A stretch of 64,000 bases of DNA, taken from positions 1 through 64,000 of the forward strand of contig QZEE01000003.1 of NCBI GenBank assembly GCA_009917445.1. Direction: 5' to 3'. The notes under the pieces were generated by a model that was not told the DNA's origin, did not search any database, and saw only the letters and a list, made by a program, of their open reading frames with translations. Positions 923 to 16,748 of this stretch are shown here, in pieces. The DNA is from a bacterium D16-76 (GTDB lineage Bacteria > Bacillota > Clostridia > Oscillospirales > Acutalibacteraceae). A program made the translations under genes and the position numbers. Position 1 is the first letter of the stretch. The number at the start of each line of letters is the position of its first letter.

Positions 923-1087
923 TCAGGTCATATCGTCCCCCTTTTCTGACTTTTTCTGCTCCAACATCTGCTTGGCGGCAGCTATAAACACCAATCCCAT
1001 TTTCTTGATGTCAGGGTTCTCCCTAAACTCTGGTGTGACCTTCACTGGATGAGACCCCCGCGGTCGGCCCCGCTTTCTTTTCTCCAT
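923..1087 (-). CDS. Small AT-hook protein, 54 residues
   Basis: This short ORF starts with an ATG whose first base is the last base of the TGA stop of the upstream methyltransferase (TGATG), a classic arrangement for translational coupling. The product begins MEKRKRGRPRGS, containing the RGRPRGS core typical of AT-hook minor-groove binding peptides, and ends in a charged helix-like tail. It is therefore likely a small DNA-binding protein or a detached DNA-binding extension of the methyltransferase, whose own C-terminus is also Lys/Ala-rich. No family assignment is possible at this length. Confidence rests on the coupling, the clean start and stop and the coherent composition. Confidence 0.5.
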   Translation of the reverse strand: MEKRKRGRPRGSHPVKVTPEFRENPDIKKMGLVFIAAAKQMLEQKKSEKGDDMT

Positions 1088-2088: not shown

Positions 2089-3035
2089 AACGTCCCTCCT
2101 TCGCCGCCCTGACAGACCAGCGCCCACAGTTCGTCCTTGGTGATGACCGTAAACAGCCGGGGCTGCTTGTCAAAGGCCTCGCGGATGTGTTTTATGAGTT
2201 TTTCTTTCCGTTCCACAGTCGGCACGATCCAGATCGTGAGCGGGAACACGCCCGCCTCCTGCTGTTCCAACCCACTGCGGTAATACTTGTGATAGCGTTC
2301 ACACTTGTCCACTACCTTGGAGGGGGACTCAGTGGCGAGGTCTACCTCAATGAACCACCTGTCTTCATACTGCCCGGACATTGTAATCGCAAAGAGGTCG
2401 GGCTTCAGCGACAACATGGAACCATATTCGCTGTAGGTGCGCCAACACTCCGGCTCCGGCTGGAGGGAGGTCAGTTTCATGCCGTGCTGCTCTCGACAGA
2501 TTTCCGTCAGATGGACAGCCACTTCCGCCACTGCCAGCGAGTGGGCAAGGAAGTAGGGGCTCGCCTCAAAGAATCTCCTCATCGGTCTGGTGGTCTGTTC
2601 GTGGAGACGGAGCAGCCTCTCCCCAGCGTGGGTCAGATGCCAGACCAGCCCGCCAGAACCAGCCCGCACGCCACCGATACGGCGGGCGAGATGGTCGACC
2701 AGCCCCAACCCCCGGAGCCGTTTCAGGGAGCGGGCAGCGGCACGGTGCGCGGCAGTCGGTGTGGCGGCAGTATAGAAATACAACCGCTGGATCTGCCCAG
2801 TCAGGAGGTAGCGATAGCGTTGGACAGCGGTGAGAATGCCCCTGTCCCTCTCACTGAGCGCGGCGGCGGTTTCCTCCAGCTGCTGACGGGAGAGGCGGTG
2901 CGGCTCCTCCCCGGTGGCAGATGGAGAAGAAATGGAATTGATAAAAGAGTCGTGAACCATAAACTTGGAAAAATCCGGCGCGGGGCGGCTTTCCCGGCTT
3001 TTGTCACCCTCTTGAGGTGTCATGCGGTTTGACAT
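2082..3035 (-). CDS. Replication-relaxation family protein, 317 residues
   Basis: The protein resembles the replication-relaxation family (PF13814) found on Gram-positive plasmids and conjugative elements. Its N-terminal half is a winged-helix-like region with the block RDRGILTAVQRYRYLLTGQI, followed by a segment ending in FIEVDLATESPSKV that resembles a nuclease-fold strand and helix. The family is thought to act in plasmid replication or in DNA processing for transfer, but its biochemistry is poorly defined. The start ATG follows GGAAGGAGG at good spacing and overlaps the stop of the upstream coupling protein gene (TAATG), so the two are translationally coupled. Being next to a VirD4-like ATPase supports a role in element maintenance. 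Confidence 0.82.
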   Translation of the reverse strand: MSNRMTPQEGDKSRESRPAPDFSKFMVHDSFINSISSPSATGEEPHRLSRQQLEETAAALSERDRGILTAVQRYRYLLTGQIQRLYFYTAATPTAAHRAAARSLKRLRGLGLVDHLARRIGGVRAGSGGLVWHLTHAGERLLRLHEQTTRPMRRFFEASPYFLAHSLAVAEVAVHLTEICREQHGMKLTSLQPEPECWRTYSEYGSMLSLKPDLFAITMSGQYEDRWFIEVDLATESPSKVVDKCERYHKYYRSGLEQQEAGVFPLTIWIVPTVERKEKLIKHIREAFDKQPRLFTVITKDELWALVCQGGEGGTLC

Positions 3036-5194
3036 TAGCGTTTCCTCCTTCCGATAGGCGTTTCCCCGGCGTTACCGCCTGGGGTGCTGTGGTTGATAAC
3101 AGTTTTGAGGTAGCTCTCCTCAGTTTCCTCTGCTGGCGTGCCGTAAGCTCTCATGCTCCGGGCGTAGAGCTCCGCTGGGTCGCGGAGGGCTGGTGGCGGC
3201 GGCAAAGTCCGCCCCATCACCCAGCCAGTGTTACGCCCTCCAGCTTGAAACGATGTATAAATCTGGTAGCGGGGCAGCGTCATAAAATCTTCGGCAGTAA
3301 GTTCCGGTGCCATCGCCGCCATATCTTTCGCGTCTTTGCTGTTCAGCCCGAACGCGATTTTGTTCCGGCAGTTAGCGTCTATCCCGGCCCGGATCTCTGG
3401 CGGCAGTTGGTCGCGGTATTGGTGCGCCAGTGTCATGCCCACACCCAGCCCCCGCGCCTGTGCCAATGCGTCGCTCAGGTCAGCAGAAAGTGAGGATAGG
3501 TAGTCCTGTAGTTCATCCACATAGATACTGACGATGTGCCTCCGCTCCGCTGGGATGCTCGCTCTGGACAACGCCAGCACCCAAGTTAGACCTACAATCA
3601 GGCTTCCCAGCAACCGCCCTGTTTCATGGCCTACAATCCCCCGGTTAAGCGGCACCAGCACGATCTTTCTTTTGTAGAACAAATCCGTCAGAGAGAACTT
3701 CGGCTGGGCTTGTCCGAGGACATTCCTCAGTCCCGGACGGAGCGTAAACTGGCGCAGTTTATTTAGCACTGGCTCAATCTGTTGCCGCCGCTGTAAATCT
3801 GACAGCGCCTCGAACTGCGCCCAGAACGGCAAAAGCGCCACCTTGTCTTTCACGCTGCGAGTGATTTTCCGGCGGAAGTTCTCATCGGTGAGCAATGGCT
3901 GGAGCCAGAGCAGCGAGGCTCCATCAATTTCCACCAGCGTCAGCAGTGCGGCTGAGAGAATGTCTTGGATGCGCACTCCCCAGCTATCTGCCCACAACTC
4001 TTTAAGCACAGAGATCACCGCATCGGCAATCAGGGCTTTGTTCTGGTAGTTTGGAAACGCCAGCGGGTTAAACCCCACCGGAGCATCGCTGGACGGATCG
4101 ATCACCACCACATCCTCGGCGCGTTCTTCCGGAATGCGGGCAAGGATGTCCGTTACAAGGTCATTTTTGGGATCGAGGGCAAGGACGCTGCGCCCAGCCT
4201 TGATGTCCGCGAGAATCAGGTGTAACATAGCGGTCGACTTACCACTGCCAGTAGGACCCGTGATAATCGTGTGCTCCCGGCTATCCCCTGGCGAGATACT
4301 GAGTTTCTTCGGCACCATGTCCATACTGACAGCAAAACTGCGGTCGTTTTGAGGGCTGTTCGGCTCTCTATGCCACAGGGGCGCGAGCAAAAGTCGCGGA
4401 TGTAGCCCCGGCGTTCCGGGCAATTCCTCTTCCCCAGCCGGGAGCAGCAGGAAGCTGGCGAGCTCCTTCACCGACAGCCGCAGCGGAAAATGCCACGGCA
4501 CATGAGCACTGTTGATTTTCTCTGGGTCATCCGTCTCATCATGGATGCGCACCCCAGCGGATTCCAGAACTTTAAGGGCAGAAATCAGGGTGCGGAGGCG
4601 GGCGGCGGCTCTCTCGTCCGATACGCCGATGCGGATTGCCGCCTCGAACCCGTGTTGCTCGGCTTTCTCCCGCACAGTTTTGCGGGTTTCTGCGGTCGCC
4701 TTGCTGACCGAGCCGAAGATAACCTCCAGCCAAGTAGCGTGCGGGTCGGGGAGTTCGGCAGACACCGGAGAGGGGGCAAAGCCCCTCCCCAGCACCACCT
4801 GTAGGACAGTTTCCGCGCTGCGCTTGTCCTCCGCCATCGCCGCCAGCCCTGCCCGAATTACGGACTGCGCGAGATTGGTGTTAAGCGACAGCACCGGACG
4901 GGTGATTTTGAGTTGACGCGCCAACCGGACAGGCGTGCGACTATTTCCGTAGACCTCGCAGAACTGAATGTCCCCGTGGGCAGAGAGCACCTGTGCGATT
5001 TTCCCGATAAACATCCGGTCGGCTCCCAGCAGATGCGTCACCCGTCCGTTCTTGCCCCGACACTCCCAAATCACTGCCCCGCGAGGGCTGAGCGCCGAGA
5101 GGTGGGTGAGAGCCTCCCACACATCTTCAAGGTTAAAAGGTCTTTGCCAGCTGACCTCCAGCCAGCAGATGTTTTCTATACAATGCTTACGCAT
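3035..5194 (-). CDS. VirD4/TraD-like conjugative coupling ATPase, 719 residues
   Basis: This is a large P-loop ATPase with Walker A GPTGSGKSTAM near residue 315, a following LALDPKNDLV block, and Walker B IYVDELQDYL near residue 558. LGVGMTLAHQYRDQL near residue 590 is typical of TraD/TraG/VirD4 coupling proteins and HerA-type translocases. Coupling proteins bring the relaxase-DNA complex to the type IV secretion channel. There is no obvious N-terminal membrane anchor, but the small two-helix membrane protein encoded immediately upstream could supply it. The ATG at 5194 is chosen because AAGGAG lies seven bases before it; the longer open frame runs into the overlapping small membrane gene and its extra residues look like shadow translation. 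Confidence 0.82.
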   Translation of the reverse strand: MRKHCIENICWLEVSWQRPFNLEDVWEALTHLSALSPRGAVIWECRGKNGRVTHLLGADRMFIGKIAQVLSAHGDIQFCEVYGNSRTPVRLARQLKITRPVLSLNTNLAQSVIRAGLAAMAEDKRSAETVLQVVLGRGFAPSPVSAELPDPHATWLEVIFGSVSKATAETRKTVREKAEQHGFEAAIRIGVSDERAAARLRTLISALKVLESAGVRIHDETDDPEKINSAHVPWHFPLRLSVKELASFLLLPAGEEELPGTPGLHPRLLLAPLWHREPNSPQNDRSFAVSMDMVPKKLSISPGDSREHTIITGPTGSGKSTAMLHLILADIKAGRSVLALDPKNDLVTDILARIPEERAEDVVVIDPSSDAPVGFNPLAFPNYQNKALIADAVISVLKELWADSWGVRIQDILSAALLTLVEIDGASLLWLQPLLTDENFRRKITRSVKDKVALLPFWAQFEALSDLQRRQQIEPVLNKLRQFTLRPGLRNVLGQAQPKFSLTDLFYKRKIVLVPLNRGIVGHETGRLLGSLIVGLTWVLALSRASIPAERRHIVSIYVDELQDYLSSLSADLSDALAQARGLGVGMTLAHQYRDQLPPEIRAGIDANCRNKIAFGLNSKDAKDMAAMAPELTAEDFMTLPRYQIYTSFQAGGRNTGWVMGRTLPPPPALRDPAELYARSMRAYGTPAEETEESYLKTVINHSTPGGNAGETPIGRRKR

Positions 5195-5217
5195 AAGCCC
5201 ACTCCTTTTTATCCACT

Positions 5218-5415
5218 CTACCACTTTCCCTGGGAACGATAGAACTTGTAAACACGCCAGCCGATAACTGCGGCGATGGCGATGACTGCGATGACGAGCA
5301 GATACACCCAAATCTCCAACAGATAGGCCACTGCCAGTCGGAGCAGGAAGGCACTCAGTGCCAGCAGAGCGCACGCTTCCACGATCCGGGTGATGAGCTT
5401 CTTGGGCGGCTCCAA
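5218..5415 (-). CDS. Small membrane protein, 65 residues
   Basis: The product is almost entirely hydrophobic between residues 12 and 55, with two likely membrane helices (around ACALLALSAFLL and YLLVIAVIAIAAVIGW) and charged ends. Translation starts at a TTG eight bases after AAGGAGG. An overlapping ATG four bases upstream is in another frame that gives non-sensible sequence. It sits between the MT-A70 methylase and the coupling ATPase on the same strand, and I infer that it anchors or partners that ATPase. No family is recognised. Confidence 0.6.
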   Translation of the reverse strand: MEPPKKLITRIVEACALLALSAFLLRLAVAYLLEIWVYLLVIAVIAIAAVIGWRVYKFYRSQGKW

Positions 5416-5418
5416 GCA

Positions 5419-6003
5419 TTACACCTCCTTCCGTTTGTCAGGTTGGATTACTTTGTCAGAATAGGTTGGGACGGAGTAGCCGGGGATGATGAGGTCGCTG
5501 CCTCCGGGAGCCTCGAATCCCCAGGCATCCCATCCTGGCTGTCGGCGGCGGGCGAAAAGCTCAAGGTAGGGAGCGTCTGACAGCCGCTCAATAATCGCGT
5601 ATTGTTCAGCAGGTTTCTCAGAATGGCGCAACTGTGGACAGAACATCCAGTTCGGCTGTGCGTGGAACTTCACCGGGGCCTTGCCACGAGTTGCGAACAG
5701 GCAGGTTTCGCTGGCGTTACGGATGTAGACCCCCAGTCCCAGCCGAGGCTTGATCCAATAAATCGCTGAACGATAAGTAAATCCCCACGCCTTGATAACC
5801 TCCAGCGCCTGCGGTATCAGCCCGTTTGGACACCAAAGATACAGATGCGCGTTATCCCCGCATAAATCCGCCACCGGCATCGCCTTGATACGCTCCAGCG
5901 ACATCAGGTCGTAATGTTTGATGGCTCCATAATTTCCGCGCTGGTTGATGTCCCACGGTGGATCTGCGAGGATAGTCTTGTATTTCTTGGAATCGGTGTC
6001 CAT
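5419..6003 (-). CDS. MT-A70 family N6-adenine methyltransferase, 194 residues
   Basis: The N-terminus contains ILADPPWDI, the DPPW catalytic motif of the MT-A70 family, followed by LYLWCPNG and the block KPRLGLGVYIRNASE. Later residues HSEKPAEQYAIIERL match the conserved HSEKP region. These enzymes methylate adenine N6, on DNA in bacterial mobile elements. The ATG follows CAGGAG at good spacing. It is the second methyltransferase in this cluster and belongs to a different family from the one at 1087-2088, so the two probably mark different sequences. The stop overlaps the alternative start region of the next gene, consistent with one transcription unit. Confidence 0.88.
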   Translation of the reverse strand: MDTDSKKYKTILADPPWDINQRGNYGAIKHYDLMSLERIKAMPVADLCGDNAHLYLWCPNGLIPQALEVIKAWGFTYRSAIYWIKPRLGLGVYIRNASETCLFATRGKAPVKFHAQPNWMFCPQLRHSEKPAEQYAIIERLSDAPYLELFARRRQPGWDAWGFEAPGGSDLIIPGYSVPTYSDKVIQPDKRKEV

Positions 6004-6199
6004 AAATCTCCTGTTTCTTGCTTTTGGTGGACACTTTACAGAAAATAGCCCTCAGTTGCAAAGTTAAGCGTTATCAGTTTTATTAGCGAATAGACACACC
6101 ATAACAGGGGTAAAAAGTCAAATAAGGGTAGCCATTAACCACTGTTGTAATTTTTACAACACTATCTTGACAACAGCCCATTTCCCATCTTTTTGACGG

Positions 6200-6421
6200 T
6201 CAAAACGGCTGTCCGCCCATGTGCCGTTGCGTCTCCCGGAGCATAGCGATATAAGCATCCAGGCTCATCTCGTGGAGCCTCGCCTGGTCTGATAAAAGCC
6301 GCCAGAGCATCCGGTTTTCCCGCCTCAGATGCTGGACTTCCCGGTCATAGACGGCCTTTACAATCACCCAAGTGATAGCAGCGACAAGGACCGTGATAAA
6401 CAGCACATCATCTAAAGTCAT
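6200..6421 (-). CDS. Small membrane-anchored protein, 73 residues
   Basis: An N-terminal membrane helix (VLFITVLVAAITWVIVKAVY) is followed by a charged, probably helical tail rich in Arg, Glu and Leu. The start is taken as the ATG eight bases after GGAGG, two bases beyond the stop of the upstream gene, which implies coupled translation. A GTG nine bases further upstream is in frame but would overlap the ribosome binding site. The function is unknown. Its position directly after the 105-residue protein and before the methylase cluster suggests a structural or regulatory role in the element. Confidence 0.6.
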   Translation of the reverse strand: MTLDDVLFITVLVAAITWVIVKAVYDREVQHLRRENRMLWRLLSDQARLHEMSLDAYIAMLRETQRHMGGQPF

Positions 6422-6423
6422 CC

Positions 6424-6741
6424 TCACCACCTCCGAACCATGCCCGCCGCTTGCTGTGCGTAAGCGTCCACAATCTGCCGATACCGCGCCGCCGCCTCTG
6501 GAGTCATGCTGGAGAACTGCTGCTCCATCATGGAGAGGGCGGCAGTGTGCTCCATTCCGGATTTCGCTAACAGTGCCAGACAGCGGTCGTGGGTTGCCAG
6601 CACCATCGCCTCCTCCATCACTTCGCCCATCACCACGCTGGTGCGCCGGGGCAGAAGGTGCGCCCCGATACCGCGCTGGGCAGGGATAACCTCCACATAC
6701 TCCGCATCAATGACCTCTCCGGGATACCTTTGATAGCTCAT
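6424..6741 (-). CDS. Hypothetical protein, 105 residues
   Basis: The ATG at 6741 follows AAAGGAG at eight bases, so the start is well supported and the longer open frame is rejected. The protein has a polar N-terminus (YPGEVIDAEYVEVIP) and a Met- and Ala-rich, probably all-helical C-terminal two thirds (MMEQQFSSMTPEAAARYRQI). No family is recognised. It is the first gene of the leftward cluster after the divergent control region and is coupled to the small membrane protein behind it. Confidence 0.6.
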   Translation of the reverse strand: MSYQRYPGEVIDAEYVEVIPAQRGIGAHLLPRRTSVVMGEVMEEAMVLATHDRCLALLAKSGMEHTAALSMMEQQFSSMTPEAAARYRQIVDAYAQQAAGMVRRW

Positions 6742-6845
6742 ACTGTATTTCTCCTTTCTGATTTTCTGGGTGTGCCACAAGGGCAATGGGACTACCGAGG
6801 GGGCACCTCCTTTCCCGCCTGGGGTGTTCGCCCTTGCGTGATTGG

Positions 6846-6875
6846 AGCATAGCAGAAACGCCGCAAAGTGGTCGA
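6846..6875 (-). promoter_or_regulatory. Candidate promoter of the leftward element cluster
   Basis: On the minus strand TCGACC (6875-6870) and TATGCT (6851-6846) are separated by 18 bases, pointing at the gene starting at 6741. The -35 is imperfect, so this is a moderate call. It lies 22 bases from the 10-bp repeat array, which could control it. Confidence 0.4.
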
Positions 6876-6897
6876 TTTGGGGAAAAGTTTTATTTTA

Positions 6898-6937
6898 CGG
6901 GGAAACACGGGGAAATGCGGGGTTTTACGGGAAGCAA
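6898..6937. repeat. Four direct repeats with an exact 10-bp period
   Basis: CGGGG or CGGGA cores recur at 6898, 6908, 6918 and 6928, exactly one helical turn apart, with A- or T-tracts between them. The array sits between the two divergent promoters of the element, so a cooperative regulator or replication initiator could bind one face of the helix here. I see no gene in 6742-7142; this array and the two promoters are its visible content. Confidence 0.5.
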
Positions 6938-6985
6938 TTTTTGAGGCAGAATATTTGCCGTTTCTGTCATAAAAACCGCTAATAC

Positions 6986-7014
6986 TTGACATTTTTAACA
7001 ATGTGTGCTACAAT
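6986..7014 (+). promoter_or_regulatory. Strong sigma-A promoter of the rightward cargo
   Basis: TTGACA (6986-6991) and TACAAT (7009-7014) are spaced by 17 bases, close to consensus. Transcription would begin near 7021, leaving a leader of about 120 bases before the gene at 7143. Confidence 0.75.
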
Positions 7015-7142
7015 GGTCAGTGTAGACTAACTCTAGGCACCTTGACAGCTTATAACAGCGTATCTCCCTGATTATTACAGATTTTGCTTGTTCTCTCTGA
7101 GGGCGGGCAATCATGTAATAATCAAAAATAAGGGGGATAATT

Positions 7143-7715
7143 ATGAGAGTGTTAGAATACCGCCTTGACTTGGTCGGACAAGGTTACACCGTGGTTAGCG
7201 GCGATAAACGCTATGAGGACATACTCACAAGGAAGTGTCTGCCCATCCGCATGTATCGGCTTATCGAGTATAATAAGCCGGTCGACCAGTTTGAGGATTT
7301 GTTCGAGAATCTTCGGTTTAGCTACGACCTCGACAAAGGCACCGAGGAAGAGTTCCGCGAGAAATATGCCAACATCCTGCTCGGCAAAAGTCCTGAGTGG
7401 ATAATCATCGCATTCCAAGTAACTGTCGGAGAGGTCTATGTAGACCTCTATAACACCAAGACTGAGGAAACTAGTTATTTCTCACTAAAGACCGACAAAC
7501 ATGGTTTCGGCCTCCGGTTTGAGGTTCCTCGCGCCGATGACGGGCCCGTTGCTGTCTACGATGTCAGAATCTATGGTGTTAAATCCGAGGCAGAGGATGC
7601 CCGCACAACCGTCACAGAATACATCAACCATGTGCGACGGGAGATTGAGTTCTTTCACAAAACCCCAGGCGGCGAAGAAACCTACATCGCAGTAACCGAA
7701 TACGCTGATCTGTAA
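7143..7715 (+). CDS. Hypothetical protein, 190 residues
   Basis: The ATG follows AAGGGGG at about eight bases and lies downstream of a near-consensus promoter. The protein is soluble, acidic and probably mixed alpha/beta, with no signal peptide or membrane segment. It includes WIIIAFQVTVGEVYVDLY and a closing EETYIAVTEYADL. I do not recognise a family. A strong terminator hairpin directly after the stop indicates a monocistronic cargo gene. Confidence 0.65.
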   Translation: MRVLEYRLDLVGQGYTVVSGDKRYEDILTRKCLPIRMYRLIEYNKPVDQFEDLFENLRFSYDLDKGTEEEFREKYANILLGKSPEWIIIAFQVTVGEVYVDLYNTKTEETSYFSLKTDKHGFGLRFEVPRADDGPVAVYDVRIYGVKSEAEDARTTVTEYINHVRREIEFFHKTPGGEETYIAVTEYADL

Positions 7716-7725
7716 GCAAAAAATG

Positions 7726-7760
7726 ACAGCTGCGGCATCGCCGCAGCTGTTTCTGCTTCT
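7726..7760 (+). terminator. Rho-independent terminator
   Basis: Perfect arms ACAGCTGCGG (7726-7735) and CCGCAGCTGT (7741-7750) enclose a five-base loop and are followed by a T-rich tract. It ends the transcript of the 190-residue gene. Confidence 0.8.
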
Positions 7761-7873
7761 TTTGGTCCGGTGTTCGATTTGCGCTTTTCTTTTGCTACAA
7801 AATATGGTATAGTAAAGAACATCACAACGGGGGCTGGAGGTGATGGCTTTGATCGAAGACGTTGAGAGTGGCA

Positions 7874-7909
7874 AAAAGAATATCCGTGACTAAAAGAATA
7901 TCCGTGACT
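7874..7909 (+). repeat. 18-bp tandem duplication creating an in-frame stop
   Basis: The unit AAAAGAATATCCGTGACT occurs twice head to tail (7874-7891 and 7892-7909). Read from the ATG at 7843, the second copy keeps frame but the junction spells TAA at 7891-7893, truncating the reading frame after 16 codons. Removing one copy would restore an open frame into the membrane protein gene that follows. Confidence 0.85.
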
Positions 7910-7983
7910 ATCTGGAAAATGCTCGCTCGAACCCGGAAGGGCGTGCATATGAGCTCATCGAATTCCTAGAAGACGGAGATGTT

Positions 7984-9153
7984 TTGTCTGAAAGGTTTCC
8001 TAACAGAATAATCTCCAGAAATTATAGAACCGACAGAACCGAATATAATGCTTTTTGCAAAGCATACATGATCCATCTCTTCAACACCTTTATCGTAAAT
8101 CCTGAAGATGCCGAAATTATGCTTGTTTCGTTCAACTACTTGCCTGAGTATGAACACGAAAAACGAGCCATCCAGCGTCGAGCCTTATACGCCCGTGAAA
8201 AATATGAACCACGCCATCCAGAAAAGAAGTTGGGTAAATCCATAGGTGCCAAAAGCAGAAGCCTTTACGACCAAGAATCCCGCATTATGAACGAACTGTC
8301 AAAAGTATTGGCAGAGCAGGCCGTTGCGCTGGGCGGGACGCTGGATATAGTTGATGAGGTTCTGGCAGAACGGGAGCTCGCTGAAGTCGTAGAAACCGTT
8401 GATCCCGTCCTATATGATGTCGAGCCGGACGAGCTTCCCGAACCACACACACCCTCGCAGCTGATACCGCTTATGGAGGTCGAGCAAGTCAAAAACTTCC
8501 GCCAGAACTGCGATCCCAGCGGAGGTGCGTTATCCCCGATGCCAGATGTTTATGTAAATAACACAGCAGACGCTACCAACGTAACAAACGTGCAGGTAAT
8601 CGTTGTGATGCCCGAAACCGCCAAACCGACAACGAGCACACGCAAGCAGCCACCAATAGAGCCAAAAACCAAAACACTAGCTCCATATCCTAGAGCAAAA
8701 ATCCCTGCCCTTCCATCCCCAAAGCCTACTCCAATTCCACACCGCCCTCCAACAAAGAGCTGCTGGCTCATAGTCCTGGCTTTGATTGTTGTTGGACTAG
8801 GCGTAATCTATATGGCATTTTCCCATTTGCCCGATTCTGAGGAGCCGAGCAATCCTGCTATTGTGGGACCGGAAGATACCGAGTTCGGAAGTGATACCAC
8901 AGATACTCCAGACAACAGCGGACCAGGTAATCGTGTTCAAATTGATAGAGCCGATGATGCCACTAACGGCAATGAGATTCAAGTTGATGGAGATAATGAC
9001 TCTGGCCAGGATACTCAAATTGTCGAAAATACCAGTCCTGGCATCAACATCCAGCCCGATGACCCATCTAAGGTAAACAGTAGCCCTGGCCTTCACATTC
9101 AGTTCAACGAGAATACTAGCCCTGGTCTTAATATCCAGAAAGACCAAGAATAA
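7984..9153 (+). CDS. Single-pass membrane protein with C-terminal SPGxxIQ repeats (5' end interrupted)
   Basis: As it stands the frame opens at TTG 7984, giving 389 residues. The ancestral start is very likely the ATG at 7843, which has GGAGGTG ahead of it and an upstream TATAGT. That frame is cut by the TAA made by the 18-bp duplication. The protein has a charged cytoplasmic half, a Pro/Lys-rich linker and one membrane helix near residues 262-282 (CWLIVLALIVVGLGVIYMAF). It ends in an acidic outer tail with the repeated motif SPGxNIQ or SPGxHIQ (NTSPGINIQ, NSSPGLHIQ, NTSPGLNIQ). No family is recognised. It may still be produced by reinitiation at the TTG, or it may be phase-off or a pseudogene. 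Confidence 0.6.
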   Translation: MSERFPNRIISRNYRTDRTEYNAFCKAYMIHLFNTFIVNPEDAEIMLVSFNYLPEYEHEKRAIQRRALYAREKYEPRHPEKKLGKSIGAKSRSLYDQESRIMNELSKVLAEQAVALGGTLDIVDEVLAERELAEVVETVDPVLYDVEPDELPEPHTPSQLIPLMEVEQVKNFRQNCDPSGGALSPMPDVYVNNTADATNVTNVQVIVVMPETAKPTTSTRKQPPIEPKTKTLAPYPRAKIPALPSPKPTPIPHRPPTKSCWLIVLALIVVGLGVIYMAFSHLPDSEEPSNPAIVGPEDTEFGSDTTDTPDNSGPGNRVQIDRADDATNGNEIQVDGDNDSGQDTQIVENTSPGINIQPDDPSKVNSSPGLHIQFNENTSPGLNIQKDQE

Positions 9154-9163
9154 CCCTCCTCCG

Positions 9164-9191
9164 CCCCAGCCCTTCGCGGGCTGGGGATTTT
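9164..9191 (+). terminator. Rho-independent terminator
   Basis: Arms CCCCAGCCC (9164-9172) and GGGCTGGGG (9178-9186) flank a TTCGC loop and are followed by ATTTTCT, closing the membrane protein transcript. Confidence 0.75.
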
Positions 9192-9229
9192 CTACATCTG
9201 AACATCTGATAAAATTATAGCTGTGGAGA

Positions 9230-9450
9230 TCGGGCACAACGAAGGCAGCGAACGGAGGCCGTCCCGGACCGATTGATGCTGTTGGACGGATTGATGTTGC
9301 TGGTGCCGTTGAAGTTGAGGCTGTAGGCGTTGGTGCCGTTAGAATTTGGTGTAGACGACCAGTAATAGCCGTTGTTCCCGGCGTTGGCGAACAGGTTGCT
9401 GGTATCCTAGCCGACGTAGCCGCCCCTAACGAACCACACTGAAATACGAT
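9230..9450 (-). other. Orphan DGR-like template/variable repeat (C-type-lectin-like fragment)
   Basis: On the minus strand one frame reads VWFVRGGYVG, a TAG stop, then DTSNLFANAGNNGYYWSST, PNSNGTNAYSLNFNG, SNINPSNSINRSG and ASVRCLR. This GYYWSST...NAY..NFN..NPSN..R...VRC pattern matches the C-terminal lectin-fold variable region of diversity-generating retroelement target proteins and the related paralogous-domain family. AAC and AAT codons are strikingly frequent at the positions that vary, as in template repeats. No start, no upstream protein body and no reverse transcriptase gene are nearby. I therefore read it as an orphan template repeat or a decayed variable region. The rest of 9192-9629 shows no gene. 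Confidence 0.5.
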
Positions 9451-9629
9451 GTCGGATAGAAACCATTTGAGTTCGATATAAGCCGTAACTTACATAAATT
9501 ATCTGACCTGTCGCTTTTTATCGCTTGAGGAGGTTTCACGATCTCCAAGAAAAGAACGCTGTCGAGCCGGAGCATAGATAACCCAAGGCGTGACCGCTGT
9601 TCCTGTAGGGTTTTATACCTACACGATTA

Positions 9630-10547
9630 TTATAACATCCCCTGCGTATTATCCCGACCATCGACACCATTTTCACTATTTTGCGGGACAATATCCTCTG
9701 AAATCGCGGCTTTTTTGCGTTTGATAAACCATCGAACCATAAGCCCAACAAACGCTATCAAACTCACGCCAACATAAACCGCCGCCGTTATATCCCAAAC
9801 TGTCCAGCCGCTATCGGGTGTCTGTTCAGTAAGGGCTGAATCAGGACATTTCTTCTCATCTTCATCGCTACTCAACGAGGTCTCCCTATCCTCTGTTGGA
9901 GTGCCGTTTTCGTCCTGGTTGATCTGGCCTGGAAGCGGTGTTTCTACTTCCTTTGCGATGGTGGTTGGGCGAACTACCAATGTGCTTGTGCCGAGCGTCC
10001 ATTCTAGCTTATCTTGCGTATTGCTATAAGGATTCCATACGGTGGCGTTACATTCACTACCTTGGTGCCCTCTACACGTTCCACAAAGATTCCCGCCGCC
10101 AATTGGAATCATAGCAACTATTTCCAGACTTCCTTCTCCCGTGAACTCCACTGGCGAGTGTAAGTTTATGCCTACCCCACTTTCCGCAGTAATCATATTG
10201 TCCCCGATAAGTTCAATAATCGTTTTACTCATCCCGCCAGATGGCGCACATGTTCCGCAACATTCTGCGTATATTGTTCCACCATGATAATTTGTGAGTG
10301 TAATCTTTAAGATTTCTTCCCCACTATCACTTGTTATTGGCTCCGTTTTGAACGATCCATCCTCACTTTGGCCTCGTCCACAGGGCGCGGAAGTATCTCC
10401 AACATCAGCATACACTGTCCATGCGCATGCGGCTTCAGCCTCATCAGTGTTTAACCCTACGACACCAGCGAAAACTAACACCAATCCCGTTAATAGACGC
10501 AGTGAGCTTTTTGCTTGTGCTTTTAATCGTTGCTTTTGCCTAATCAC
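9630..10547 (-). CDS. Secreted, Cys-rich, membrane-anchored protein, 305 residues
   Basis: The start is GTG, six bases after GGAG. An N-terminal signal sequence (SSLRLLTGLVLVFAGVVGL ending in an AEAA cleavage-like site) precedes an outer domain with many cysteines (for example AECCGTCAPSGG and LCGTCRGHQGSECNA) that probably form disulfides or bind metal. An acidic low-complexity stalk (TEDRETSLSSDEDEKK) leads to a C-terminal membrane helix (YVGVSLIAFVGLMVRWFI), an RKK stop-transfer and a short cytoplasmic tail. No LPXTG motif is present. I do not recognise the family. It is cargo of the mobile region and lies between the DGR-like fragment and the small recombinase. Confidence 0.6.
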   Translation of the reverse strand: MIRQKQRLKAQAKSSLRLLTGLVLVFAGVVGLNTDEAEAACAWTVYADVGDTSAPCGRGQSEDGSFKTEPITSDSGEEILKITLTNYHGGTIYAECCGTCAPSGGMSKTIIELIGDNMITAESGVGINLHSPVEFTGEGSLEIVAMIPIGGGNLCGTCRGHQGSECNATVWNPYSNTQDKLEWTLGTSTLVVRPTTIAKEVETPLPGQINQDENGTPTEDRETSLSSDEDEKKCPDSALTEQTPDSGWTVWDITAAVYVGVSLIAFVGLMVRWFIKRKKAAISEDIVPQNSENGVDGRDNTQGML

Positions 10548-10599
10548 TTATTTCTCCATTTATTTCCTAACTTGTAATGGGATCAGTTTAATCAAAAAA

Positions 10600-10727
10600 G
10601 CGACCACATGTTAGTCGCTAAACATCCACAAATCAAGTCTTTAGAGCTCAATTTGCTACACATGGTCGCATTTATGTTCTAAAAACTTATACGTTGCGGT
10701 GAACTTTGAATGTGGATATTTAGCTAC
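10600..10727. repeat. Nested inverted repeats beside the small tyrosine recombinase
   Basis: A 17-base element at 10614-10630 (GTCGCTAAACATCCACA) is matched at 15 of 17 positions by the reverse complement of 10711-10727, with 80 bases between. The left element overlaps a smaller hairpin, GCGAC (10600-10604) and GTCGC (10614-10618), which on the minus strand is followed by TTTTTT. A further ACATGGTCGC block occurs at 10659-10668. The set begins 31 bases beyond the recombinase stop codon and could be its recombination site, or a folded leader or attenuator for the leftward secreted-protein gene. Confidence 0.5.
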
Positions 10728-10758
10728 TTTTATTATAGCATATACCGCATTAAAACGG

Positions 10759-11331
10759 CTAAAACAACTCCACCCCCAAATACGCCCTGTCCAAATCGTC
10801 CTGCGCCACGCCGAGGTATCGTTTCGTTACCTCGTAGTTGCTGTGATTATAGATGTCCATAATCACCACCGGCGACACCGCCTTGCTCGTCCAAGCGTGA
10901 TAGCCCCAGGTCTTGCGGAGGCTATGGCAAGCGATTTTCCCTATAATTCCGACAGCGACCGCCGCCGCATGAATAATTCTCCATGCCTGAACCCGGCTGA
11001 TTGCTTTCGGCTCCTTCCGGTTGCTGGCGAAGATAAACTCGCCCCGTCTGTGCGGAAAATATAGCCGCAAGGCGTTCAAAACACACTTGTTCAATGCGAT
11101 GGTCTTGGTTTTCCCGGTTTTCTTCTCGGTGACCGTCACATGGGCGCGGAACTCTCCGCGTTCCTCGTCATACACATCCGACCACTTTAGCCGGAGCAGG
11201 TCGCTGATGCGAAGCGCCGTGTGCGCACCCACGACAATCAGGGCGTAATTGCGCAGTTGTCCCCGCTTCAAGAAGTATTCTCCCAGTTCTCTCAGCTGGT
11301 TTTTGTCCCGGATCGGTTCTGTTGCTGCCAT
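10759..11331 (-). CDS. Compact tyrosine recombinase/integrase, 190 residues
   Basis: This is a tyrosine recombinase reduced to the catalytic domain. TALRISDLLRLKW carries the first catalytic Arg near residue 41 and KKTGKTKTIAL the Lys region. CHSLRKTWGYH gives the HxxR box near residues 143-147, IYNHS a further His, and the nucleophile is the Tyr in VTKRYLGVA near residue 177. The N-terminal core-binding domain of ordinary integrases is absent, as in some small DNA invertases and in plasmid or element resolvases. The ATG follows GAGGAGG. Inverted repeats lie just downstream, and an SLH surface protein gene is divergently oriented upstream, so it could resolve multimers, invert DNA or move a cassette. 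Confidence 0.82.
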   Translation of the reverse strand: MAATEPIRDKNQLRELGEYFLKRGQLRNYALIVVGAHTALRISDLLRLKWSDVYDEERGEFRAHVTVTEKKTGKTKTIALNKCVLNALRLYFPHRRGEFIFASNRKEPKAISRVQAWRIIHAAAVAVGIIGKIACHSLRKTWGYHAWTSKAVSPVVIMDIYNHSNYEVTKRYLGVAQDDLDRAYLGVELF

Positions 11332-11499
11332 GATAAAAGCCTCCTCGTCTCTGATGCGTTACAGTATAGCGCATCTCTGGGCGAGGGGGCTTTGTAACAT
11401 TTTTATAGGTCGGTTACATTCTGCCGCCCCTCAGCACCCTACGCCCTACCCGTACGATGCCCGTTTCCAGATTTTTTAGTTGGAGCCTGCGGAAAAGGC

Positions 11500-11528
11500 T
11501 TGAATATCGCCGTCCAGAGTGCTAAAAT
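11500..11528 (+). promoter_or_regulatory. Promoter of the large surface protein gene
   Basis: TTGAAT (11500-11505) and TAAAAT (11523-11528) are separated by 17 bases, 50 bases ahead of the ATG at 11579. Confidence 0.6.
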
Positions 11529-11578
11529 AGGTATCACTTCTATAATTCTGTTACATCTTGAAATGGGGGCGCGTTTTT

Positions 11579-14500
11579 ATGCTGAAAAAACGGATTCTGT
11601 CGGTGATTTTGTGTCTGTGTATGGTGGTGGGGATGCTGCCAACCGTCACGTTGACGGCACAGGCAGCAGGGACAGGAATTATTGACAAACTCAATAATCT
11701 AAAAAACAGTTATCCTGATGGAAGCTATTGGACGGTGAATGGCGGTCCTTGCCCTCCGCCTACAAGCGATTATCAGCACACCGACCACAGTAACTGTAAT
11801 TGGTATGACGGAGCGTCAGAATGTATGGGATTTGCTCGTCTGCTTTTTTATGAAGTTTTTGGTATAAAATGTTCAACGCTTGAGAGTCAAAAGAGATATG
11901 ACCGTGAAAATGTATCAGTTGGGGATTATATTCGACTCGATGGAGATACGCACTCGGCAATCGTCATAGGGAAAAATGGGGATCAGCTTACTTTGGCCGA
12001 GTGTAACTTCGGCGGCAGATGTCAAGTTAAATGGGGGAACAGGCCCTCTGGTTATGCTGCCTACATAAGTAATATTACCTTTTTTATTCATGCCCCGCAG
12101 GACGTCTATGACCGGGTAAACGGTTCCACCGCATCCGCACAAAACATCGGTGACGACTTCTATGCCTATATCAGAAATACTCACAGCGGGCTTGCTCTGG
12201 AAAATCACAGCAATAATGTCCAGCTTGCCACAGTAGACGATTATGATCCGCGGCAAATCTGGTATTTCACTCATCTTGGATATAATCAGTATAAAGTTAT
12301 CAATATGTATGATGGCCGTTGCCTAGATACTGATGGAGCGAGCGTGCGGGTGATGTCGTATACAGGAGCCTCAAAGCAGCTCTGGCAAGTATGTGCGACA
12401 GACGATTATTCCACTTATACCCTCTACTATATTGCTCCACCTGAGTATGGTGAAAATAATGCTAATCATACATTAGTTCTTGATGTGACATATGGAAATG
12501 ACGACTATGTTCCCGCTGGGAGAGATGTTCAACTCTCGCAAAACTGGTTCGGCGGCAGTGGCGACAGTTTTGTGAATGGAGGCCCCTTCCATAAAGCGCA
12601 GACATTCCAAATTATAAAAATCAGCCAAGAGGATGTATCGCGTCTCATGGCCAGTGATCTTGGCAGTGATTTCTACTCCCGCATCGAGTTTAACGGCACC
12701 TATCTGCAAACCACAGGCAGTGGAACCCTTATTGAAAACCACAGAGGAATAAATGTCGCAACGACCAAAACACAGGCGAACGATCCGCGCCAAATCTGGC
12801 ATTTTATGCGACAGTCCGACGGTTCTTATAAAATTGTGAACGAGCATAACAGTTGGTGCTTGGATATTCAAACAAAAATTGCGGGAAACAACAAAAATAT
12901 TTGGACTTGGAGTGACGACCACGGCGGCAATTCCGCACGCTGGTATCTGGTTCATTCTCCCGGCGATTCTACCTATCGCATTGTTTCTGCGCTCAACTAT
13001 CCCAGCGAATTATATTCTATCAACATTCCAAACAGCAGCATAGATGAAGGGGCAAATGTCGAACTCTTCTCGCAGCAGTCCGATGTGAACCAGCAGTTCG
13101 CGATTTCCAGCATTTCTTACACGCGCCCCGATAAGCCTTCTGAGCCGGTCAATGTTAAAGTGAATACCGCATCGGATATGGTCACAGTCACTTGGGATGA
13201 GGTGTCATCTTCCAGCATATACGACAATCGCCAGTATGAAGTGTGGCTGGAATATGAAAATAATGAAACCAACCCAGTAGAAAACTCTTATCAGGTCGCA
13301 AATGGAACCAACTGCATATTTAATGCCACTGATTCCACACTTCCCACTGGCAACTATACTGTGGGCGTCCGTTCCGTCAACACGATGTATCGTGGCTATC
13401 GCTCCGATGATTCAACCGTAAACTTCACCATCGCACCCGAACTTGCCACCTACACAGTCAGCGTCAACGCCACAACAGGCGGCACCGCCAGCGGCGGCGG
13501 GACTTGTCGGGACGGAGATTCTATCACTATCACCGCAACCCCCAGCAATGGTTATCATTTTGTCAAATGGACGGAGAACGGCAGCGAAGTCAGCACCTCC
13601 GCCAGCTACACCTTCACCGTGAACGCAGACCGCAATCTCACCGCTGTTTTTGAGGAAGACGAAAAACCTACTCCGACCTATAACATCAATGTTAGTGCTA
13701 CGGCGGGCGGAAGCGTTTCTGGCGGCGGAACCTATGACGAGAATACTTCCGTCACAGTTATCGCTACCCCTGGCACCGGCTATGAGTTCAAGGAATGGAC
13801 GGAGAGCGGCTCTCAGGTCAGCACCGATGCCAGCTATACCTTTGCCGTGAACGCAAATCGGACGCTTACCGCAATCTTTGAACAGGCAGAAACCCCTCCG
13901 CAGCCTGTGACAACTTATAGCGTCAGCGTCACCGCCAGCCCCGTAGAGGGCGGCACCGTGACGGGCAGCGATACTTATCAGGCTGGCGCATCCGTTATAG
14001 TTACCGCAACCGCTGCCAGCGGCTATGAGTTCAAAGGCTGGACAGAAAATGGCAGTCAGGTGAGCACCAGCGCCAGTTATACATTCACTATCAACACCAA
14101 CCGCATCCTCACTGCCATCTTCGAGGAAAAGGAAGAGAACCCACCCACACCGCCAACTCCGACAACCTATACTATCAGCGTCAATGCCAGCCCCGTAGAG
14201 GGTGGCTCGGTCAGTGGCGGCGACAGTTATAATGAGGGCGAACCTGTTACTATCACAGCTACCCCAAACAATGGCTATAAGTTCGTGGAGTGGCAGCTGA
14301 ACGGCTCTCAGGTTAGTATTAATCCCAGCTATACCTTCACCGCCAGCGCCTCCCAGACCTTCACCGCCATTTTCGAGAAGGTCGACACCCCGACTCCGCC
14401 AGAACCAACCCCAACCACCTACACAATCAGCGTCAACGCCAGCCCCACAGTAGGAGGCACTGTCAGCGGTGGAGGTAGCTTCACCAAAGGCACCTCCGTT

Positions 14501-16111
14501 ACCGTCACCGCAGCCCCGAACGCTGGATATGAATTTAAGGGCTGGGTGGAAAATGGAACTCAGGTCAGCACCTCCGCCAGCTACACCTTCATCGTCAACA
14601 CAGATTGGGCGCTTACCGCAACTTTTGAGAAAAAGATAGAAGAACCGCCCACACCTCCGACACCGCCAACCCCGGTCAAATATATCATCAGCGTCAGCGC
14701 CAATCCCGCAGCTGGCGGCACGGTTAGCGGCGGTGACGCCTACGAAAGCGGCACATCCGTAACTGTTACGGCAGTCCCGTCCAACAATTATCGGTTTACG
14801 GGCTGGTCAGAAAACGGACAGCAAATCAGCACCAACCTCAACTATACATTTATCGCTGACTCGGACAGAACCCTTGTTGCCGTGTTCACCTATACCGGCG
14901 GCAGTTCCAGCCCTAGCACCCCCAGCGTTCCAAGCACTCCCACCACCAATCCGGGCGGCACTCACGGTGGCGGTTCCGCAACTACGTCCAGCCCCACACC
15001 GTCTCTTCCAGTTAGCACTGCCGAAACCACCAGCAACACCACAGCAACCACGGCCTCACCCTCTGCCGCAATCAAAGGAGATACGGCAACAATCACCATT
15101 TCATCTGCGGTTGCTGATGAGATTATCAAGCAAGCCGTGTCCAACGACAGCGATCAAGTTATAATCTCGCCAGTAGTCAAAGGCGATGTGACAAACGTCG
15201 AAGTGACGATTCCCGCCAATGTTCTGGATGAGGTTGGTCAAAAAACCGATGCCGCTCTTCTCCTTTCCACCCCTGTAGCCGATATAGCGTTCACCAACAA
15301 CGGACTGTCCAACCTGTCCGAGCACGGCGCGGTTACAGTCACGGCAGACACCAGCGAAAACTCCATCGCTCTCACAATCTCAGCGGGAGGGCGGGGCGTA
15401 GAATCCGTTAGAGGTGGCATCACACTGACCGTCCCCATCGAACAAAGCGCCCCCGGAACGGTTGCCGTTTTGGTTCACGATGACGGCACTCGCCAAATCA
15501 TCCGCAAATCTGTCGCCAGCGATGGTTCAATCGCGATTCCCCTGGACGGCCCCGCCAAGCTGGAGATTATCGACAACACCAAGCCCTTTTCTGATATCCC
15601 TGCCGAGAATTGGGCGGCAGATGCGGTAGCCTTTACCAGCGCACACGAATTGTTCAACGGCACCAGCAACAACATCTTCAGCCCCAACCTCCCCATGACC
15701 AGGGGGATGCTGGCGGTCGTGCTTCACAATCTGGAGAATAATCCAAGACAGGCTTTTAGCGCAGCATTTTCCGATGTGGCTGGCGGCGCATGGTATTCCG
15801 ATGCTGTCGCTTGGGCGGCAGAGCGGGGCATCGTTGCCGGCTACGGCAACGGACTGTTCGGCCCCAGCGATAACATCACCCGTGAGCAGTTAGCTGTGAT
15901 ACTCTGGCGCTATAGCGGAGAGCCAGCCGCCACCAACAAAGAACTGCGGTTCAGCGATGCGGACAGCGCCAGCGATTATGCTCTGGACGCTCTGCGCTGG
16001 GCTGTAGAAAACGGCGTTATCAACGGCTACGGCAACGGTGTCCTCGCGCCCAAGGGACTTGCCACCCGCGCCCAAGTCGCACAGATGCTCATGAACTATC
16101 TGAAAAAATAA
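11579..16111 (+). CDS. Giant SLH-anchored surface protein: peptidase-like, ricin, FN3 and InlB B-repeat domains, 1510 residues
   Basis: The ATG at 11579 starts a classic signal peptide (MLKKRILSVILCLCMVVGM, cleavage near AQAAG); the upstream TTG is rejected. Residues 35-175 resemble a CHAP/NlpC-type cysteine peptidase or amidase (Cys in SECMGFA, His in DTHSAIVIG). Two ricin-type beta-trefoil lectin units follow (about 180-340 and 350-510, with DPRQIWYF and DPRQIWHF motifs), then a fibronectin type III domain (about 520-625). Six divergent InlB B-repeats come next (about 625-1105), then a Ser/Thr/Pro-rich linker and a beta-rich region. Three SLH domains (1337-1510) attach it to the wall. It probably binds glycans and may cut peptide or wall material at the cell surface. 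The gene is flanked by a promoter and a strong terminator and sits among mobile genes, so it looks like adhesin cargo. Confidence 0.85.
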   Translation: MLKKRILSVILCLCMVVGMLPTVTLTAQAAGTGIIDKLNNLKNSYPDGSYWTVNGGPCPPPTSDYQHTDHSNCNWYDGASECMGFARLLFYEVFGIKCSTLESQKRYDRENVSVGDYIRLDGDTHSAIVIGKNGDQLTLAECNFGGRCQVKWGNRPSGYAAYISNITFFIHAPQDVYDRVNGSTASAQNIGDDFYAYIRNTHSGLALENHSNNVQLATVDDYDPRQIWYFTHLGYNQYKVINMYDGRCLDTDGASVRVMSYTGASKQLWQVCATDDYSTYTLYYIAPPEYGENNANHTLVLDVTYGNDDYVPAGRDVQLSQNWFGGSGDSFVNGGPFHKAQTFQIIKISQEDVSRLMASDLGSDFYSRIEFNGTYLQTTGSGTLIENHRGINVATTKTQANDPRQIWHFMRQSDGSYKIVNEHNSWCLDIQTKIAGNNKNIWTWSDDHGGNSARWYLVHSPGDSTYRIVSALNYPSELYSINIPNSSIDEGANVELFSQQSDVNQQFAISSISYTRPDKPSEPVNVKVNTASDMVTVTWDEVSSSSIYDNRQYEVWLEYENNETNPVENSYQVANGTNCIFNATDSTLPTGNYTVGVRSVNTMYRGYRSDDSTVNFTIAPELATYTVSVNATTGGTASGGGTCRDGDSITITATPSNGYHFVKWTENGSEVSTSASYTFTVNADRNLTAVFEEDEKPTPTYNINVSATAGGSVSGGGTYDENTSVTVIATPGTGYEFKEWTESGSQVSTDASYTFAVNANRTLTAIFEQAETPPQPVTTYSVSVTASPVEGGTVTGSDTYQAGASVIVTATAASGYEFKGWTENGSQVSTSASYTFTINTNRILTAIFEEKEENPPTPPTPTTYTISVNASPVEGGSVSGGDSYNEGEPVTITATPNNGYKFVEWQLNGSQVSINPSYTFTASASQTFTAIFEKVDTPTPPEPTPTTYTISVNASPTVGGTVSGGGSFTKGTSVTVTAAPNAGYEFKGWVENGTQVSTSASYTFIVNTDWALTATFEKKIEEPPTPPTPPTPVKYIISVSANPAAGGTVSGGDAYESGTSVTVTAVPSNNYRFTGWSENGQQISTNLNYTFIADSDRTLVAVFTYTGGSSSPSTPSVPSTPTTNPGGTHGGGSATTSSPTPSLPVSTAETTSNTTATTASPSAAIKGDTATITISSAVADEIIKQAVSNDSDQVIISPVVKGDVTNVEVTIPANVLDEVGQKTDAALLLSTPVADIAFTNNGLSNLSEHGAVTVTADTSENSIALTISAGGRGVESVRGGITLTVPIEQSAPGTVAVLVHDDGTRQIIRKSVASDGSIAIPLDGPAKLEIIDNTKPFSDIPAENWAADAVAFTSAHELFNGTSNNIFSPNLPMTRGMLAVVLHNLENNPRQAFSAAFSDVAGGAWYSDAVAWAAERGIVAGYGNGLFGPSDNITREQLAVILWRYSGEPAATNKELRFSDADSASDYALDALRWAVENGVINGYGNGVLAPKGLATRAQVAQMLMNYLKK
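13450..14893 (+). repeat. Six tandem InlB B-like repeat units within the surface protein gene
   Basis: Six units of roughly 75 codons each begin with Y(T/S)(I/V)SV and carry GGxVSGGxxY, GYEFKGWxENG and ASYTF motifs, ending in an AIFE-like strand. Pro/Thr-rich spacers of variable length separate units 3 to 6. The units are divergent enough at DNA level to be stable but could still recombine. Confidence 0.85.
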
Positions 16112-16126
16112 TCCCCTCATACCAGA

Positions 16127-16166
16127 CCAGCGGTCAGCCAATTTCCTCGGCTGACCGCTGGCTTTT
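16127..16166 (+). terminator. Rho-independent terminator
   Basis: Perfect 13-base arms CCAGCGGTCAGCC (16127-16139) and GGCTGACCGCTGG (16149-16161) are followed by CTTTTGTGTT, ending the surface protein transcript. Confidence 0.85.
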
Positions 16167-16169
16167 GTG

Positions 16170-16748
16170 TTATTTCTTGGCATAGTCCCATCGACTTCTA
16201 ATCTTGACTCCGTTCGCTCTCAGGCAGCGGATCACTACTTGCGGATGGACGTGGAAACATTCAGCAATTTCCTCAGTCGTGCGCATCTCGTCATACATAG
16301 CGACCACTGCGTCAGCATTCAGCCTTGCTTGGGCTTTAGCCCTAGTAACCTCAACTCCGTGTTGTCTCAACAGTTTATTGATGGTCGTTTTACTACAGCC
16401 AAACCGCTCTGCGAGTTTGATGGTGGTGGTTTCGCCGGATTGATAGGCAGAAACCATCTGTTTGATGTCAGCCTCGGAAAACTCTCTGCGATATGGTTGT
16501 TTCAAACGTTTTACTGCTATTTCCCCAAACACATCAATTTCTCGGTTGTGCCTCTCCGCATCATCTGCTATAATAAACGTAACGGCTTGACCGAAGTTTT
16601 TCGCGGCCTGGATGACCTTGACTTTCTGGCGAATAATAGCGTCGTATTGGTTTGGGTCAGGCTCTGTTAAGCCCACCAAAGAGTACACAGGAAAAACCGC
16701 ATGGCAGGGCCATTTATGGCTTATGTAGTGCGGTTTTTCTGTTGTCAT
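16170..16748 (-). CDS. Helix-turn-helix DNA-binding protein, up to 192 residues
   Basis: The C-terminal 110 residues contain two helix-turn-helix-like units: IKLAERFGCSKTTINKLLRQ, and TEEIAECFHVHPQVVIRCLR followed by NGV. Each resembles the HTH that follows resolvase or transposase domains. The N-terminal part (YDAIIRQKVKVIQAAKNFG, then TFIIADDAERHN) is not recognised. The first 20 codons of the open frame overlap a strong hairpin (16691-16739), so the real start may be the GTG at 16688; neither start has a convincing ribosome binding site. It lies directly behind the integrase on the same strand and could be an excision or control factor. Confidence 0.55.
   Translation of the reverse strand: MTTEKPHYISHKWPCHAVFPVYSLVGLTEPDPNQYDAIIRQKVKVIQAAKNFGQAVTFIIADDAERHNREIDVFGEIAVKRLKQPYRREFSEADIKQMVSAYQSGETTTIKLAERFGCSKTTINKLLRQHGVEVTRAKAQARLNADAVVAMYDEMRTTEEIAECFHVHPQVVIRCLRANGVKIRSRWDYAKK
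16691..16739. terminator. Bidirectional hairpin/terminator behind the integrase
   Basis: Arms GAAAAACCGCA (16691-16701) and TGCGGTTTTTC (16729-16739) are perfectly complementary, with a second inner palindrome (GCCATTTATGGC). T-runs occur on both strands, so it can end the leftward integrase transcript and any rightward read-through. Confidence 0.65.

Follow-up and report, generated by a model that had tools for sequence, protein, structure and literature searches.

A diversity-generating retroelement template RNA, probably parted from its reverse transcriptase, multiplied and carried by a mobile element in a Firmicute

Diversity-generating retroelements (DGRs) are usually described as compact cassettes in which the reverse transcriptase (RT) and the template repeat (TR) stand side by side. 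The stretch of 64,000 nucleotides analyzed here (the window) comes from an Acutalibacter genome and bears on its minus strand a lectin-coding repeat that resembles such a template. It raises the question of what a DGR template does on a contig without an RT, and to which enzyme and which target genes it would belong. The original prediction had taken positions 9230-9450 for a DGR-like template or variable repeat lacking an RT, and the assignment as a template was borne out: the repeat belongs to a family of units with leader, TR and closing stem, and a search of the host genome with the RVT_1 profile gave nine matches, none of them on the window's contig C83. As to its extent, the repeat itself had been correctly recognized, but the conserved unit is longer and runs from 9634 to 9225 on the minus strand. 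With 410 bases it is one of 23 complete homologous units found, and its parts are as follows.

9225..9634, minus strand: complete template-RNA unit (TATAAT box, structured leader, TR, closing stem), delimited by its boundaries, alignment A3, covariation and the model match
9629..9637, minus strand: extended -10 promoter-like box TGTTATAAT, start of the unit
9606..9621, minus strand: leader helix 1 (TAGG...CCTA), 3 of 4 pairs changed on both sides, 100% of cells paired
9539..9546, minus strand: closing stem, 5' strand GGAGATCG, with a compensatory change in 1 of 22 units
9532..9537, minus strand: helix 4, 5' strand GAAACC, 98.5% of cells paired, 4 of 6 pairs changed on both sides
9459..9464, minus strand: helix 4, 3' strand GGTTTC, partner of GAAACC
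9245..9427, minus strand: template repeat (RGG...SVRC)
9407..9409, minus strand: TAG within the template repeat, common to the Saccharibacteria copy
9225..9232, minus strand: closing stem, 3' strand CGATCTCC, pairing with GGAGATCG

Helix 4 is counted as helix 5 in the table of pair counts (alignment columns 102-107). Conservation across the aligned units ceases just past the closing stem. The TATAAT box occurs in all 23 units, a figure that is not independent as TATAAT served as the anchor defining the unit start, and it is preceded by TGn in 18 of the 23; a -35 box showed no conservation among the units by eye. Between TATAAT and the lectin-coding sequence of the window unit lies a leader of about 200 bases. 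The minus-strand frame 9427-9224 translates as RGGYVG*DTSNLFANAGNNGYYWSSTPNSNGTNAYSLNFNGTSNINPSNSINRSGTASVRCLRCARSP, begins with RGGYVG*DTSNLF and has SVRC near its end. With regard to the initiation sites IMH and IMH*, CTCCGTTCGCTG is common to the ends of TRs and of some variable repeats (VRs). Upstream of this frame only 30 codons are open, and the unit has neither the start nor the body ahead of the lectin repeat that characterize a protein-coding FISUMP gene. The original prediction was thus right about the internal TAG (9409-9407) and the missing protein body. It was also right that a TAG is tolerable in a template, as this one lies outside any gene and the TAG would do no harm there. 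The units as a whole look untranslated.

A DNA search of the host genome recovered four further units in tandem on contig C85 at 73-97% identity. When the unit was searched in 148 relatives, two genomes were positive, namely the host genome and Acutalibacter sp. 1XD8-33 of the same genus, which holds two units. These tandem copies and the score of a leader covariance model (144.7 bits for the window unit, itself among the 21 training sequences) place the window repeat far beyond chance. When one genome per species was scanned by pattern, 22 loci were obtained, the 12 strongest being one from Acutalibacter and 11 from Candidatus Saccharibacteria; ten of the latter stem from two metagenome-assembled genomes (MAGs), SRR18439533_bin.3 (G149) and SRR16350202_bin.8 (G150). 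G149 contains eight units, one of which is a copy of the window unit, and G150 contains 11 unit copies according to the leader model: seven complete, two with a degraded or partial TR and two cut by contig ends. Matches to the lectin repeat number 21 in G149 and 31 in G150. Units and targets were sorted by the upstream open frame with a threshold of 75 codons (46 hits in the loci analyzed, including one duplicate and one hit at a contig edge that was assigned by hand). By this measure 24 hits are unit copies with 0-71 open codons upstream; the remaining hits are genes, with 141-505 open codons in those not truncated by a contig end. On the IMG/VR contig L034 (19.6 kb), on which no RT was found, a unit and a complete FISUMP gene (TIGR02145 3.6e-17; PF09603 4.5e-10) lie beside a recombinase of the kind found in the window. 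At another Saccharibacteria locus (L105, 318-741) the unit begins soon after an apparent tRNA gene ending in CCA, as judged by eye.

The leader of these units is a conserved RNA structure. Alignment A3 comprises 22 units, the G149 copy of the window unit being left out, and the structure used for pair counts was taken from the RNAalifold result with the TR helices removed (37 pairs). In this alignment 93.5% of the cells are paired, compared to 79.1% in shuffled alignments; 24 pairs are changed on both sides (17.2 in the shuffles), corresponding to 136 cells (40.7 in the shuffles), and none of 500 shuffles was as high on all five measures. Slid controls showed 33-49% pairing, a difference that is partly due to this alignment having also served to derive the structure. 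Trained on 21 units, a covariance model restricted to the leader found one unit each in three further genomes (G405, G428 and G418) among 295 genomes of the Saccharibacteria family, and it also matched genome G522 (locus L206) and the IMG/VR contig L214, both likewise outside the training set. All five of these units are followed by a lectin-type repeat, and in all five the closing stem is kept with other letters, namely AAAGATCG/CGATCTTT, AAAGATCG/CGATCTTG (7 of 8 pairs) or GAAGATTG/CAATCTTC. They constitute independent support for the RNA structure. The unit follows the RT gene directly in G405 and G428; no RT open reading frame (ORF) was seen in the G418 locus of 3.2 kb. A cmscan search of positions 1-20000 of C85, which hold the four tandem units, returned no Rfam family at or above its gathering score.

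With this structure at hand, it is extremely improbable that the units are a functionless relic of a FISUMP gene family decaying by ordinary divergence. Such a decay would account for the internal TAG, for a host genome without targets or an RT on the window contig, and for the ordinary divergence of most MAG targets from the templates. A promoter-like box, a leader and a structure common to units from two phyla are, however, not expected of a decayed gene. Decay is also contradicted by the covariation and by the coding similarity among units, which begins only at RGG, where DNA conservation resumes. The term 'stranded relic' used in the original prediction needs to be divided: the unit may fairly be called stranded in its Acutalibacter host, but units of this kind are the normal form in Saccharibacteria. 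A unit inside the array of G150 contig C63 (L107, 5096-5420) has a well-kept leader and a degraded TR; leaders may outlive their templates.

Furthermore, the RTs of the two Saccharibacteria MAGs were analyzed. G149 and G150 have one RVT_1 match each. Both proteins are DGR-type RTs: they contain the motifs IGNLTSQ and YVDD, and [IVL]GxxxSQ together with YxDD is a hallmark of DGR RTs. PF00078 matches them with E-values of 3.5e-9 and 2e-9, and the nearest NCBIfam models score below their cut-offs. The two RTs are 80% identical to each other. Their closest relatives found are the RTs of G405 and G428 (64-68%), compared to 39-54% for the RTs of canonical cassettes of the Saccharibacteria family and 25-31%, over part of the length, for the RTs of the Acutalibacter host. 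Both DGR loci contain the RT, an accessory protein and an NYN-domain protein in the same order, beside a gene that we take to be murG-like. A TR beside the RT gene, a usual though not strictly required trait of DGRs, was not found in G149 or G150: the incomplete contigs around the RTs (L099, 7.3 kb; L100, 13.8 kb) contain no unit. The canonical Saccharibacteria cassettes are alike in having lectin-type TRs and VRs, pairs differing at adenines only, and RTs of 39-68% identity. They differ in that a TR-like match lies within 0.35 kb of the RT in 8 of 10 other family genomes examined, whereas G149 and G150 have their 8 and 11 units elsewhere. In addition, the leader model has no match at the canonical loci L160-L179, unlike in G405 and G428.

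The structure of the accessory protein was predicted from seven sequences (mean pLDDT 88.3, pTM 0.57). In the model its last 115 residues form a four-helix bundle that fits Avd of the Bordetella phage BPP-1 (4dwl) with Z 15.2 and an rmsd of 1.9 Å over 109 residues. S23-family proteins fit this bundle equally well (2gsc, Z 16.4), Foldseek alone gave E 0.12, and a search of solved structures by sequence returned nothing useful, so that an Avd-type partner beside the RT is predicted at the fold level only. In its combination of RT, Avd-like partner and TR RNA the system resembles the BPP-1 DGR. In BPP-1, RT-Avd is recruited by a structured RNA, the spacer that follows the TR on its 3' side (PMC12875486), whereas the units described here have their conserved structure 5' of the TR and a stem that closes the RNA at the 3' end of the TR. 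NYN-domain proteins were observed beside both Saccharibacteria RTs (L099, 2204-2755; L100, 8062-8700) and beside the recombinase of L034 (621-1262); this protein is a possible RNA-processing partner of the template RNA.

DGR activity leaves differences between TR and VR at adenines of the TR. One of 21 targets tested in G149 and G150 has this signature: the TR/VR pair on G150 contig C63 differs at 7 of 31 adenines and at none of 99 other positions (p = 2.5e-5, uncorrected), or at 2 of 102 other positions if the last codons are counted. The remaining 20 targets show 9-46% differences outside adenines relative to their best TR, and no target differing from the window's own TR at adenines only was found in G149. 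Summed over the 21 targets, each compared with its best TR from the same genome, 444 of 971 adenines and 807 of 2569 other positions differ. As these differences are heavy outside adenines, most targets are old or their template is missing. As a control, the same method was applied to 20 loci of other family members and yielded nine TR/VR pairs with differences at 172 of 490 adenines and 16 of 1313 other positions; eight of the nine have at most two differences outside adenines. The TR and VR of L034 (21 of 52 adenines, 25 of 129 others) were rejected as a clean pair. G149 and G150 are fragmented MAGs in which copies of TR and VR are located at the ends of contigs C31, C63 and C68. Assembly gaps may thus hide a TR beside the RT or active pairs, and the short-read assembly itself may have lost such pairs at the contig ends.

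The same comparison decides the status of the copies in the host genome. Second copies had been proposed as a check of the original prediction, and four do exist on C85; they are, however, further templates and not VRs that differ at adenines only. Among the 22 units, positions with a consensus adenine vary about 1.7 times as often as others (0.152 versus 0.091), whereas real TR/VR pairs differ almost only at adenines. Given this mild bias, the idea that the host copies are variable repeats was dropped. A distant variable region in the host genome, as also envisaged, was not found: a search of this genome for a target gene of the lectin repeat returned the five units and one weak match on C105, which is an unrelated ORF and not a target.

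Could the units, instead of serving as RT templates, be silent donor cassettes from which expressed FISUMP genes acquire sequence through recombination, in the manner of pilin or VlsE switching? Many partial lectin-coding copies next to full-length genes in one small genome, and a tyrosine recombinase adjoining units of the element, would be in line with such a role. We nevertheless consider it highly unlikely, as RNA covariation and a closing stem are not expected of donors, units of this kind are linked to an RT in G405 and G428, the single clean pair differs at adenines only, and the frame past SVRC is lost in 2 of 22 units.

A template role could in principle also be fulfilled within the Acutalibacter host, by one of its own RTs acting in trans. 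The host genome has three DGR-like RTs on C58, C44 and C72 (L022, L023 and L024), and the repeat pairs neighbouring them differ at adenines only or nearly so (12 of 31 adenines and 0 of 98 other positions; 15 of 22 and 0 of 73; 16 of 39 and 2 of 102). Their sequences are unrelated to the window template, the leader model has no match at any of the three loci, the partial similarity of these RTs to the Saccharibacteria RTs is low (see above), and the host genome yielded no lectin-repeat target, which together make this use very improbable. The window locus alone falls short of a complete DGR: an RT together with a target of its own was found neither in the locus nor in the host genome. The unit works like a DGR template and, in Saccharibacteria, is part of a DGR.

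The connection between the two phyla is provided by a mobile element that occupies the first part of the window:

1..16678, unstranded: mobile element, ending exactly at 16678 on the right (..TTAAGCCCACCA) and traced leftward to the contig start at base 1
2082..3035, minus strand: Replication-relaxation family protein (PF13814, 2.5e-39)
3035..5419, minus strand: T4SS coupling-type ATPase, 794 aa (PF02534, 1.1e-7; PF10412, 1.6e-6)
9630..10547, minus strand: 305-aa ORF between recombinase and unit, apparent signal peptide by eye, no Pfam match
10759..11331, minus strand: small tyrosine recombinase, 190 aa (Pfam Phage_integrase, 2.5e-21)
11558..16111, plus strand: large secreted cargo protein with ricin-type lectin, InlB-type repeats and three S-layer homology domains

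Further genes of the element encode an N6/N4 methylase, an MT-A70 protein and an HTH protein. Window positions 1817-16678 are 99.6% identical over 14,862 alignment columns to positions 3-14843 of contig C6 of G149, and the C6 copy keeps the TAG in the template repeat. A related element (about 92%) lies on a 229-kb contig of Acutalibacter sp. 1XD8-33. All three sequences are common up to TTAAGCCCACCA and diverge at the same base into three different flanks. As C83 begins at window base 1, the assembly contains no sequence to the left of the window. The suggestion that an RT is located there was not confirmed: the 1XD8-33 element has no RT next to it by ORF reading (the four RVT_1 matches of this genome are all on other contigs), and the closest fitting RT found resides in the Saccharibacteria MAG that carries the nearly identical element copy.

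The Saccharibacteria-element junction is known from one MAG contig (C6). The sharing could accordingly reflect a misjoin or contamination in one assembly, with the element confined to one phylum, all the more since both genomes, G149 and that of the window, could stem from one sampled community. This explanation appears unlikely. The related element of 1XD8-33 on its long contig and the common right end in three contexts speak against it, as does the C6 flank, in which 11.3 kb beside the element match other Saccharibacteria, a part of it in 33 other family genomes among the 121 searched, mostly across a pth-like gene. Relatives of the recombinase were moreover found in 9 of 394 Saccharibacteria-family genomes (67-99%); within 1.5-kb flanks of the recombinase, a unit is present at L206 and lectin-type repeats at L204 and L205. 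The neighbouring recombinase had also suggested integron-like cassettes, but a template agrees better with the RNA structure and with the copies linked to an RT.

Taken together, it is very probable that a DGR template RNA has parted from its RT, multiplied and become mobile-element cargo, and that here it resides in a Firmicute whose genome yielded no close RT and no target. The window locus would be a transcription unit of its own, in which promoter-like box, structured 5' leader and closing stem serve to offer the lectin-coding TR to a DGR RT provided in trans. In Saccharibacteria, a single chromosomal RT, together with its Avd-like partner, would reverse-transcribe the many dispersed templates, making errors at adenines, and the products would be written into the C-termini of FISUMP-type surface genes. 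The units are presumably transcribed, used by an RT in trans and active. The template RNA would have left its ancestral place behind the RT and multiplied, with some copies riding on an element with a tyrosine recombinase; the templates in Acutalibacter, with no close RT or target, are probably passengers. It is possible, at somewhat less than an even chance, that mobile elements of Saccharibacteria bring along template RNAs, and sometimes a target gene as in L034, which exploit the resident RT of any Saccharibacterium entered, and that the element is exchanged between the epibiont and the bacteria hosting it.

DGRs with more than one TR and DGRs acting in trans have been published before. The accessible part of PMC6642488 gives 55 of 271 multi-VR DGRs with more than one TR and names as the largest case six TRs in Pseudomonas costantinii, with few A-to-N changes; it does not describe RT-free template arrays. 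In Thiohalocapsa PB-PSB1, targets apparently rely on an RT or TR located at another genomic site; the accessible part of this report (PMC10907252) describes remote targets and incomplete DGRs, but no multiplied stand-alone template units or template cargo of mobile elements. In the literature searched, which largely excluded subscription papers and preprints (and included the accessible parts of PMC8144416, PMC10462680 and PMC12102498), we found neither stand-alone template arrays, on mobile elements or otherwise, nor exchange between Acutalibacter and Saccharibacteria. New is the RT-free, multiplied and mobile template RNA. Template RNA, RT and targets come apart here, with one RT, about ten templates and a score of targets in a genome of less than 1 Mb. 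This opens the questions of how one RT selects among templates, which part of the RNA suffices for recruitment in trans (a structure that can be tested is defined by the covariation) and whether templates disseminate independently. That a Firmicute and a Saccharibacterium carry nearly the same element is direct evidence, at the sequence level, of DNA recently exchanged between phyla, and it gives a hint as to the partner of gut Saccharibacteria. If templates are indeed passed on in this way, Acutalibacter would be a candidate for this partner, and templates would spread apart from the RT that copies them.

In a tree of 15 recombinases, calculated with no outgroup and without a 77-aa fragment from G357, the protein of the window groups with those of G149 and 1XD8-33 (95/94), and the one encoded on C85 groups with that of L034 (98/95). 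As it is unrooted and most of its other forks are open, this tree gives no direction of transfer. GC content is not decisive either: 0.526 in the window element compares with 0.587 in its flank, yet a flank of the 1XD8-33 element has 0.523. In a plasmid collection the coupling ATPase has distant relatives only (93 records, all below 60% identity). The second element of the host genome adjoins a region of C85 (L014, 14660-20000) that presumably represents a Tn1549-type conjugative element of Firmicutes. The cargo protein with ricin, InlB and S-layer homology domains is also present in the Saccharibacteria copy, and an S-layer anchor is odd for a Saccharibacterium.
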